Source: Patescibacteria group bacterium
Lineage (GTDB): Bacteria; Patescibacteriota; Minisyncoccia; Moranbacterales; UBA2206
Reading direction: 5' to 3'
Length of the DNA: 33,664 nt
Assembly (NCBI GenBank): GCA_030837625.1
Contig: JAUPKF010000012.1
Location: 1-33,664, forward strand
Positions 7,231 through 9,486 of the stretch are shown here, piece by piece (the stretch's first letter is position 1; the number at the start of each line of letters is the position of its first letter). The position numbers and the translations under genes are program-made. The notes beneath the pieces were generated by a model. The model saw only the letters and a list, made by a program, of their open reading frames with translations. It was not told the origin of the DNA and made no database searches.

Positions 7231-7258
7231 AGACAGTTACAGCTCGTTGACAATTTCA

Positions 7259-7383
7259 TCCCCCACCACTTTTCCGCTACGCCAAAGGCGTTATCGGTTC
7301 ATATCACTTCCGTATATTTTTGCTTGAGCTATCTTGGAAAAATATTTCTCCCAAGAAGCAAAGAGCGGAAAAGTGGTGGGGGA
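7259..7383. repeat. 125-bp element with perfect 20-bp inverted ends (TCCCCCACCA family)
   Basis: TCCCCCACCACTTTTCCGCT (7259-7278) is the exact reverse complement of 7364-7383. The outer ten bases, and the flank GGGGGACAAG on one side, are shared with the inverted repeat around the GIY-YIG gene at 9091-9379. The inner ten bases differ but still pair. The interior has no open frame of note. Confidence 0.75.
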
Positions 7384-7387
7384 CAAG

Positions 7388-7439
7388 TCAAAGCCCCGCT
7401 TTTACGCCTCTTTTCAGCGGCATAAAAGCGGGGCTTTGA
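7388..7439. repeat. near-perfect hairpin in the operon leader
   Basis: A 17-bp outer stem (TCAAAGCCCCGCTTTTA against its complement ending at 7439), then CGCC/GCGG and a short loop. There is no T-run, so it is not a terminator. It ends 25 bases before the ribosome site of the 7477 gene and would fold in the mRNA leader. Confidence 0.65.
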
Positions 7440-7476
7440 ATCGGAAATGCTGATAATGCTATTGAGGAGGAACAAG

Positions 7477-7743
7477 ATGGAAGAAGGCAACTATTTTACG
7501 ATGCTCAAGGAAAACAGTCTGCAAAAGCTGGCGGAAGATCTGGGACTGGAAGTGAGAAACAAGGAGTATCTGTATCTTACCACCGGCGAAGTTTTCGTAA
7601 CTCACGTCTGGGAATCGAAATTGTTCATTAACCGGTTTTTTTTCGGCTTGGACAAAAGAAAGTTCCCGACTATAAACAAAAAAGTTGAGGAGCTGGATTA
7701 CGTCAAAAAGTTCAACCCGATGAAGAAAGGAGATGCGGCATGA
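7477..7743 (+). CDS. hypothetical protein, 88 aa, first gene of unknown operon
   Basis: The family is not recognised. ATG at 7477 is chosen because GAGGAGG (7464-7470) sits at ideal distance; an in-frame ATG at 7447 has none. The protein is soluble, with a helical N-terminus (SLQKLAEDLGLEV) followed by alternating beta-like segments and a Lys-rich end. It has no signal or membrane span. Its stop overlaps the next gene's start (ATGA), so the two are translationally coupled. Its neighbours are membrane or exported proteins, suggesting a cytoplasmic partner of an envelope complex, but no function can be given. Confidence 0.65.
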   Translation: MEEGNYFTMLKENSLQKLAEDLGLEVRNKEYLYLTTGEVFVTHVWESKLFINRFFFGLDKRKFPTINKKVEELDYVKKFNPMKKGDAA

Positions 7744-8111
7744 CCGACTGGGAACTCAAACACGGACGCATCGGCGCGTCCGAATTGGAAGAAGCTGAAA
7801 GTGCCGGAGAAATTTATCCGGTTATGTGGCTCTTGTTTTTCCTAGCGGGACTTTTCATTTTTTGCGTTCTGGTCTCGCCGAAATTTAAGGCCGAAGGAGT
7901 ACTGGAAGAAGTCTGCGCCATAGCTTTTAATTGTATGGCGCCATTTGTACTTTTTTTGGCAGCCTGCATCGGACTCAGCGGGATTTTGATTCATATCGCT
8001 TTCTTCCTGTTACTTCGCCATATTGTAAGCAGTAAAGTGGATATCGCGATAGTTGTATGTGTGATTATCGCGAGCGAGGCGTATTTTTTTTATCAACTCT
8101 TTTTCAGTTAA
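7740..8111 (+). CDS. hypothetical integral membrane protein, 123 aa
   Basis: A soluble N-terminus of about 25 residues is followed by three hydrophobic spans (about 27-46, 59-90 and 98-121). The start overlaps the previous stop by four bases and has AAAGGAG upstream. The middle hydrophobic stretch is long enough to count as one long or two tightly packed helices, so three or four spans are possible. No family is recognised. The operon position between a small soluble protein and a single-pass exported protein suggests a three-protein membrane unit. Confidence 0.65.
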   Translation: MTDWELKHGRIGASELEEAESAGEIYPVMWLLFFLAGLFIFCVLVSPKFKAEGVLEEVCAIAFNCMAPFVLFLAACIGLSGILIHIAFFLLLRHIVSSKVDIAIVVCVIIASEAYFFYQLFFS

Positions 8112-8124
8112 GAAAGGAAATGTC

Positions 8125-8760
8125 ATGAGTAAAAAAATCACGCCGTTGTCATTCCCTGAATTCTGGATATTCCTGGTGGCAGCACTCGTTGCCACAGTGC
8201 TGGTAATATTATTCTGTATCGATCCCACCCGCGCCGCCGACAGTGTGGTATACGTCAGTGACAATGAGGACGACGATCGAAAACCCATCATCCTGGTCAA
8301 CGCGGAAAAAGCGGTTTTCCTCCTTTTCCCAGAGTTTGGGGGATGTTACATACGCTCCGAGGACAAGGTGGACATGATATACGTGCCCGAGGAAAAAATT
8401 CCTGCCCAGTTTTCTGAGGTTGGAGTGAGAGAAGACCTAAACAACAAGCCTCTCTACTTGGACAACTACTTCGTTCAAGAGATGCTCGGGGCGTCAATAG
8501 AGGAAAAGTGCAACTGCTCCAAAGCTATTTTGACCGCCGATGACGATAATCTGGCGGTTCTCGTCTACAGTGACGGGTCAGAGGAATGCTTTCACAAGGA
8601 AGACATTCCTCACGGTCTTTGGAGCCGTCTTATGTTGGACGGCGACCAGATCGTCAAAGTGGGAAAAGGCCCATTCGCGGGCCAAGAGCAAGTTTTCACG
8701 CTGGAAAGCATGGAATCGAGGTGGCAGTGTTCCTTCTTCGCTGCCTCATTCTATCGATGA
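8125..8760 (+). CDS. hypothetical exported or single-pass protein, 211 aa
   Basis: An N-terminal hydrophobic segment (about 13-33) ends in PTRAADS, which can serve as a signal peptide or anchor. The outside domain of about 175 residues is acidic, with a Cys pair in CNCSK (about 130-134) and further single Cys residues. It looks mixed alpha/beta with a DDDNLAVLVYSDGSEE strand-turn-strand segment. The ribosome site is AAAGGAAA. The gene ends eight bases before a strong terminator. No family is recognised. Confidence 0.65.
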   Translation: MSKKITPLSFPEFWIFLVAALVATVLVILFCIDPTRAADSVVYVSDNEDDDRKPIILVNAEKAVFLLFPEFGGCYIRSEDKVDMIYVPEEKIPAQFSEVGVREDLNNKPLYLDNYFVQEMLGASIEEKCNCSKAILTADDDNLAVLVYSDGSEECFHKEDIPHGLWSRLMLDGDQIVKVGKGPFAGQEQVFTLESMESRWQCSFFAASFYR

Positions 8761-8767
8761 AGATCAT

Positions 8768-8808
8768 CCCCCGTTTGGCACCATTGCCGGACGGGGGTTC
8801 TTTTTTTT
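8768..8808 (+). terminator. rho-independent terminator of the 7477-8760 operon
   Basis: CCCCCGT (8768-8774) pairs with ACGGGGG (8791-8797), followed by TTCTTTTTTTT. A second small pairing, TGGCA/TGCCG, is possible in the loop. Confidence 0.85.
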
Positions 8809-8824
8809 GTGATACCTACAAATT

Positions 8825-8937
8825 ACCTGCCCGAAATGCTTCGATACTAACTGAGGTTGATAATAACTCACGAGCTGAATTAGCTAATCGTGTCGGTACT
8901 AAGCAACCAATTGGCATTTCGAAGCAGGCGGGCGAAT
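8825..8937. repeat. 113-bp inverted-repeat element, copy A (ACCTGCCCGAAATGC family)
   Basis: The left end ACCTGCCCGAAATGCTTCGA and the right end GCATTTCGAAGCAGGCGGGC are imperfect inverted repeats (CCTGC[C/TT]CGAAATGC). A copy in the opposite orientation with the same pair of unequal ends lies at 22377-22490 and is almost the same length. The interiors of the two copies are not obviously similar. Confidence 0.7.
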
Positions 8938-9090
8938 CCATACAAATATACAAATTGCGAATATAAAAACAGTCCCGATAATAATAACGGAACCGTTTTT
9001 ATATGCGCTCATCTCTTTTTAATTGATGAGAGAAAGACAAGGAATCTAGTCTTTGATTTTTTTAGGCTTTCGCCTTTTTGTTTTTGCTTG
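8938..9090. other. intergenic stretch with small hairpins, no gene seen
   Basis: Contains a wobble-paired hairpin (AAAAACAGTCCCG ... CGGAACCGTTTTT, about 8965-9000), a weaker AAAGAC/GTCTTT hairpin before a T-run near 9034-9064, and AGGC/GCCT with T-runs. None can be assigned to a gene with confidence. Confidence 0.4.
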
Positions 9091-9379
9091 TCCCCCACCA
9101 TTTAGGCTTTTAGACTTTTCTCTATCCTCTTCCGGAGCTCAATCAATCCTCTCTTATGCCGTTTCAATTGTTTTTCTCTTTGAAAAGCATCGTCCTTGGA
9201 GAAAAAAGCCTCATAATACCTTACTTCCCATGGACGTTTGTCCTTGGTGTAAGTTGACTTTCCTGAATTATGTTCCTCTAACCTTTTTCTCAAATCGCCA
9301 GTACAACCGATATAAAAAGAATCTTTCTTTTTACTTTTAATCAGATAAACATAATACATAAAGCCTAAATGGTGGGGGA
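9091..9379 (-). mobile_element. candidate GIY-YIG element: gene bounded by perfect 20-bp inverted repeats
   Basis: TCCCCCACCATTTAGGCTTT (9091-9110) is exactly complementary to 9360-9379. The enclosed open frame starts at the base next to one repeat (ATG 9357-9359), and its stop codon TAA (9102-9104) lies inside the other. The unit is therefore repeat-gene-repeat with no spare sequence. The outer ten bases and the flanks (ATCCCCC... on one side, ...GGGGGACAAG on the other) match the 125-bp element at 7259-7383. No target duplication is obvious. Confidence 0.6.
9102..9359 (-). CDS. GIY-YIG domain nuclease, single-domain, 85 aa
   Basis: A compact GIY-YIG fold protein. YVYLI (3-7) gives the first strand and FYIGCTGDLRKRLEEHNSGK the second, with the catalytic Arg in RKRL. 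RYYEAFFSKDDAFQREKQLK holds the conserved Glu of the family helix. The length is normal for YhbQ/URI-type singletons. These are predicted to cut one DNA strand; cellular roles of the singletons are poorly known. There is no Shine-Dalgarno; the leader is the inverted repeat itself. The last codons and the stop are also repeat sequence, so the gene is physically part of the repeat element, unlike a bystander gene. Host-repair function is the alternative. Confidence 0.85.
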   Translation of the reverse strand: MYYVYLIKSKKKDSFYIGCTGDLRKRLEEHNSGKSTYTKDKRPWEVRYYEAFFSKDDAFQREKQLKRHKRGLIELRKRIEKSLKA

Positions 9380-9486
9380 TAAATTTATTTTTATTTTTGT
9401 TTTATCCCCTACCGTCTTTATTCAATTTCTTAAATACAAACAGCAAGGGACAATACAGTATACACTCCCCTCCTAATTACTATTTA

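Follow-up and report, generated by a model that had tools for sequence, protein, structure and literature searches.

The two palindromic elements of the window, i.e., of the whole 33,664-nucleotide stretch of DNA analysed here, are insertions that a related genome lacks, and sequence comparison suggests that they rather likely belong to a family of mobile hairpins, in which autonomous-type units carrying a nuclease gene and gene-less units bearing the same arms would both be mobilised by the nuclease. Membership in such a family would explain how the arms change sequence while staying paired. The features concerned are the following:

7255..7384, + strand: hairpin element carrying no gene; its arm ends span 125 bp, with TTCA further out to the left and C to the right; an insertion with respect to genome G001
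7259..7278, + strand: left arm of the 125-bp element, TCCCCCACCACTTTTCCGCT, inverted repeat of 7364-7383
7279..7291, + strand: small hairpin ACGCC-AAA-GGCGT adjoining the left arm, from folding and from the alignment of sister copies
7364..7383, - strand: right arm of the 125-bp element, inverted repeat of the left arm
9089..9382, - strand: hairpin element with a gene; its arm ends span 289 bp and are flanked by TG and TAA; not in G001
9091..9110, + strand: arm of the 289-bp element, TCCCCCACCATTTAGGCTTT, holding the nuclease stop codon
9102..9359, - strand: 85-aa single-domain GIY-YIG nuclease P0001 (Pfam)
9360..9379, - strand: second arm of the 289-bp element, its inner end touched by the nuclease ATG (9357-9359)
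about 9404..9453, strand not assigned: hairpin ATCCCCTACC...AGGGACAA of this kind, probably older and decayed, shared with G001

Both elements are intergenic, the 289-bp one lying between convergent genes. The sequence-only reading had described two perfect 20-bp repeats with a shared outer decamer and differing inner halves, and exact complementarity bears this out: 7259-7278 and 7364-7383, like 9091-9110 and 9360-9379, are exact reverse complements that have the outer decamer TCCCCCACCA in common, but not the ten bases inside it. The asymmetric flanks that it had ascribed to both elements are indeed the same (A-TCCCCC / GGGGGACAAG), once the 289-bp element is read on the - strand. Single-strand folding against dinucleotide shuffles gave z values of -9.7 and -6.0 (0/200 and 0/100 shuffles as stable), which excludes chance for these hairpins. 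The exact decamer occurs nine times in the 0.97-Mb genome, four of the occurrences being the window arms, and a small hairpin similar to that at 7279-7291 follows one arm in the alignment of many sister copies.

G001, the only other genome of the same genus compared at this locus, has flanks beside the elements that are 81-89% identical and lacks both elements, which are therefore insertions. At site 1 the empty sequence GACAATCCAAAGTC corresponds to GACAAT/TTCATCCCCC...GGGGGAC/AAGTC in the window (slashes mark the junctions), and at site 2 GGCT/ATTTATTTTT corresponds to GCT/TGTCCCCC...GGGGGATAA/ATTTATTTTT; no target duplication was found at either site in comparison with the empty sites of G001. 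The hairpin at 9404-9453, beside site 2 in both genomes, is probably an older and decayed relative. The 125-bp element is followed directly by a near-perfect inverted repeat of 24 bp whose loop measures 4 nt (TCAAAGCCCCGC..., 7388-7439); this repeat is found in G001 too, where the 125-bp element is missing. The inner arm of the 289-bp element, TTTAGGCTTT, recurs at 9061-9070 as part of a small hairpin that lies 30 bp upstream and is older than the insertion, a match to which 18 of 5000 shuffled flanks gave an equal. Copying of inner arms from the insertion flank was nonetheless rejected for the 59 gene-less copies described below, in which no excess of such matches was seen (2 vs. 2.7 expected).

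The two loci do not stand alone: many further copies exist, and their inner arms are paired as well, so that neither of the conditions named as refuting the sequence-only reading applies. The arm that we call type A (TCCCCCACCAYYTTT) was counted 45 times in G029, 20 in G019, 15 in G018 and 12 in G032, mostly in pairs 50-131 bp apart, while the reversed pattern did not occur in the genomes searched. The type B arm (ACCCTRTTAARTAA), which is the arm of the own-genome nuclease L011, forms some 25 pairs without a gene (63-194 bp, most often 141-145) and 8 gene-bearing pairs (289-294 bp). Gene-less copies of both types share their arms with nuclease units, and in both the upstream arm is preceded by TTC and the gene-side arm followed by AA(A); a third type (C) has few gene-less copies. 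L084 and L089, located before different genes of one genome, have 88% identical interiors and are, judging from this identity, a recent copy within that genome. Short type A hairpins (L097, L276, and L278; 65-68 bp in those with two exact arms) seemingly stand at the same gene, and their occurrence at this apparently shared position in two genera (G029, G032, G001) implies that some copies may be old. The recurring parts of type A copies are the arms and, often, one small hairpin; their interiors can point either way with respect to the TTC/TAA ends, and the general claim of one conserved RNA fold was rejected (mean z about -0.6, 35 interiors). Type B copies are all oriented alike and share a three-helix fold in which base pairs are compensated. 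As to the proposal that the 125-bp element is a gene-less derivative of the 289-bp one, it is gene-less, but descent from its neighbour did not hold up: its arm CTTTTCCGCT is closer to the gene-bearing elements of relatives (L016-L018, CYTTTA...) than to TTTAGGCTTT of the 289-bp element, which makes it a member of a sister lineage and not simply the neighbour minus its gene.

We read 59 gene-less type A copies, most of them retrieved with an exact outer-arm query, so that part of the outer-base conservation is due to ascertainment and only inner and flanking positions count as independent evidence. Positions 16-19 of the arms were Watson-Crick paired in 45, 50, 53, and 54 copies, respectively, as compared with means of 25.6, 17.5, 18.9, and 30.8 and maxima of 36, 29, 29, and 40 in shuffles, with four pair types at most of these positions. 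In the ortholog pair L096/L106 the change was made in both arms in step, and at the HAD gene of another species (L349) a hairpin with the same outer TTCACCCTGT and a different yet paired inner arm repeats the window pattern of fixed outer bases and changed, paired inner arms. The pairing is thus kept despite sequence change, as had been claimed from the two window elements. The covariation may result from selection or from arm-to-arm copying. Correction of one arm by the other is known for imperfect inverted repeats, as a matter of general knowledge, and a purely mechanical origin of the covariation (template switching or quasi-palindrome repair), with no selection on the hairpin, is a serious possibility to which we give somewhat less than even chances; it would be compatible with nuclease-driven mobility. 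The two orientations of type A interiors, such as loop inversion between arms would give, favour copying or inversion. On the other hand, inner bases drift while outer ones stay fixed, and the uncorrected mismatches that persist (5-6 of 59 copies at positions 16-18; L273 and L321 keep theirs at the same place), together with the single orientation of type B interiors, favour selection.

The only gene of the 289-bp element, on the - strand, fits exactly between the arms, its ATG touching one and its stop codon lying inside the other. The GIY-YIG domain (Pfam, E 5.5e-18) spans the whole of P0001, the nearest solved structure by sequence and by predicted fold is UPF0213 (1zg2), followed by Slx1, and these two are also the closest folds to the predicted model (pLDDT 86). 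Residues Y5, Y16, G18, R26, H30, and E50 are invariant among close relatives, and the protein belongs to the UPF0213-like single-domain branch of the GIY-YIG superfamily; searches of PADLOC and PHROGs returned weak, uninformative matches only. Nuclease genes of this kind are common in candidate-phyla bacteria; within the family, probably Candidatus Moranbacteria, 32 of 34 genomes have relatives of P0001, with up to 12 per megabase. The five closest (L014-L018) are all bounded by inverted repeats of 20-24 bp, with different yet matching arms. Strong inverted repeats flank the nuclease genes at 26 of 93 family loci, a few of these repeats being unrelated palindromes nearby, vs. 3 of 372 mismatched-flank controls; among 80 named relatives, mostly from candidate-phyla bacteria and sharing five loci with the former set, 43 lie between inverted repeats vs. 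6 of 400 controls, in gene-bearing units of about 280-330 bp. Comparison of 67 gene-bearing units shows an outer CCC that hardly varies and a variable remainder, and the two arms agree in 91-100% of units at positions 1-13, a figure that is partly circular because arms were picked by complementarity. One nuclease gene (L035) has an NTS-like arm. The window's genome has yet another GIY-YIG gene, its third (L012, about 1390-1860 of G000:C3), which neighbours tRNA-Asn and is preceded by a partial duplicate of the 5' end of that tRNA, and a lone half-site TGGTGGGGGACGAG is found in the same genome downstream of a tRNA gene (L002, about 1501-1520 of G000:C21).

Arm similarity follows protein similarity (Spearman 0.34 vs. 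a permuted maximum of 0.13), and the type A arm was present in 6 of 6 genomes with a type A nuclease (at least 60% identity) vs. 7 of 28 others (p 0.0013, uncorrected for relatedness). This correlation weighs against the proposal that some other enzyme, e.g., a RAYT-like Y1 transposase, moves the hairpins and that the nuclease is a passenger or parasite. Y1 (HUH) transposase genes were detected in 9 of the 11 genomes searched, the window's included, so that another enzyme could move the gene-less copies, and copies without a cognate nuclease do exist, G019 and G032 having type A gene-less copies and no clear cognate. Nevertheless, the two best Y1 loci have no A, B, or C arms within 1.5 kb and copies are present in G020 and G032, which gave no Y1 match, and we therefore consider this proposal unlikely.

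Judging from the predicted reading frames, most gene-less copies immediately precede a start codon, and their 3' arm is positioned like a Shine-Dalgarno sequence. An ORF of 60 codons or more begins 5-18 nt after GGTGGGGGA in 34 of 59 type A copies, as compared with 3.8% per end for random positions at the same loci, and 18 of 20 type B copies end exactly in ...TTATTTAACAGGGT-AA-ATG, i.e., 2 nt before the ATG. The downstream genes encode PGK, MreB, RecA, and a T4SS pilin according to Pfam and, as read by eye, LexA-like, PilC-like, and PilM-like proteins, L9, ProS, RibH, and a hydrogenase subunit; they are unrelated, and a regulon was rejected. Congeners lack the element at the mreB, recA, gtrA, Dsb-like, pilM-like, HAD, hydrogenase, and ribH genes, with flanks otherwise continuous at most of these sites, the upstream sequence differing more at pilM. 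No target-site duplication was found at the mreB, gtrA, Dsb-like, HAD, and hydrogenase sites; one recA copy may have a 3-bp (TAA) duplication. In G020, NTS/dRS3-like repeats (ATTCCCGC...GCGGGAAT; L355, L358) lie upstream of genes where other species have type B hairpins.

Gene-bearing units are also retained within structural RNA genes. Five lie in rnpB (L209, L217, L218, L235, and L253), where RNase P RNA was confirmed at L253 (E 1.3e-23) and the other four were assigned by the shared AGGAAAGTCCG motif and their flanks; at L218 the nuclease gene is antisense to rnpB. Three of these loci (L217, L218, L253) have, in addition to the nuclease unit, a second, gene-less hairpin, CCAGCCCTTTTGG...CCAAAAGGGCTGG. 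Others are inside 23S rRNA (L203, L208) and 16S rRNA genes (L188, L201, L231, and, at the 5' part, L228), and L233, L258, and L261 lie against tRNA 5' ends, where stretches of the tRNA are directly repeated, these repeats being partial at L213 and at the own-genome copy L012. Direct repeats of about 10-16 bp were seen only at tRNA sites. Rfam gave no match in the window and no family for the hairpins; over 60 related loci no match overlapped the nuclease genes beyond the host rRNA, tRNA, and RNase P RNA, and a relaxed threshold at 16 loci, mostly gene-less, added only host RNAs and chance-level matches. A group I or II intron was rejected, no intron RNA core being found by Rfam around the nuclease genes.

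The tight spacing to start codons, the fixed orientation and compensated three-helix fold of type B copies and the arm pairing kept by orthologs could also indicate that the gene-less hairpins are cis-regulatory mRNA leaders, in which TCCCCCACC hides the Shine-Dalgarno-like GGTGGGGGA until a signal arrives, mobility being secondary or historical. We judge this improbable, given that the downstream genes are unrelated, that the leader is missing before the same genes in close relatives, that the same arms bound nuclease genes and that related units occur in rRNA and RNase P RNA genes. Ordinary terminators, or palindromes flanking a small ORF by chance, would suit intergenic hairpins and an element between convergent genes, but are hardly credible, being contradicted by the empty sites and also by the existence of copy families, by a gene that fits inside its arms and by the mismatched-flank controls.

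We favour, then, the mobile hairpin family. Its autonomous-type unit, of about 290 bp, would consist of two inverted arms enclosing one small GIY-YIG nuclease gene, and its gene-less units, of 60-150 bp, would retain the same arms. The nuclease may recognise the folded arms in single-stranded DNA and nick at or near them, and nicking would mobilise units with matching arms both in cis and in trans. Copies would then persist at sites of little harm, tolerated because, ahead of a start codon, the 3' arm can double as a Shine-Dalgarno site or because, in a structured RNA, the arms lengthen one of its helices. The needs of the nuclease and, near start codons, also of the ribosome would be reflected in the constant outer bases, whereas the inner bases would merely have to pair. 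A bolder version, which we put forward only tentatively, is a transposase-free class of mobile DNA, spread across the candidate phyla, in which a small GIY-YIG nuclease moves a hairpin with its own ribosome-binding site and inserts it exactly in front of start codons and in helices of structural RNAs, rewiring translation starts. Mobile hairpins do lie repeatedly at the ribosome-binding-site position, upstream of recA, mreB, and probably rplI, a placement that offers mobile DNA a possible route to alter translation control.

Ssn proteins are site-specific single-stranded-DNA GIY-YIG nucleases associated with NTS repeats, and the nuclease/hairpin system is probably a relative of theirs. It shares with that family a single-domain GIY-YIG protein and a cognate palindromic repeat family; the repeated palindrome is indeed present in the same genome, as the A and B arm families with their gene-less copies, and NTS-like ATTCCCGC...GCGGGAAT repeats occur here too (L355, L358). 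It differs in its arm families and in that nuclease and arms are joined in one unit, of about 290 bp, that is polymorphic for presence and absence. Since arm types follow nuclease types, the natural variants provide a testable pairing of nuclease and hairpin.

GIY-YIG insertions matching no intron have been reported in 16S and 23S genes of candidate-phyla bacteria in a study that places rRNA insertions mostly at the tops or bases of stem-loops, makes no mention of inverted repeats and leaves their spread unexplained (PMC11270868). Our results supply an anatomy for these insertions and tie them to dispersed gene-less hairpins, units of this kind, which have gene-less relatives, also being found in intergenic DNA, in rnpB and at tRNA genes. 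L203 and L208, and these only, resemble the intervening sequences (IVS) of 23S rRNA as inverted-end insertions that extend an rRNA helix, but they carry a GIY-YIG gene and belong to a family extending beyond rRNA. The gene-less derivatives with the terminal inverted repeats of a gene-bearing element recall MITEs, although there is no transposase and no clear target duplication was seen at protein genes. The accounts of REPIN (PMC3116915) and TnpA_REP (PMC8266576) describe short mobile palindromes with dispersed gene-less copies and an enzyme gene bounded by palindromes, and to that extent the likeness to REP/REPIN-RAYT is close, with mobile palindromes, gene-less copies between genes and an enzyme gene with matching palindromes. 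It differs in that the gene inside the arms encodes a GIY-YIG nuclease, in place of a Y1 (HUH) transposase gene bounded by the repeats, in that the arms are 20-bp long-range inverted repeats enclosing the gene, and in the sites occupied, at start codons and in structural RNA genes. By analogy, our best reading is that the system works like REPIN-RAYT, without a Y1 transposase inside the arms.
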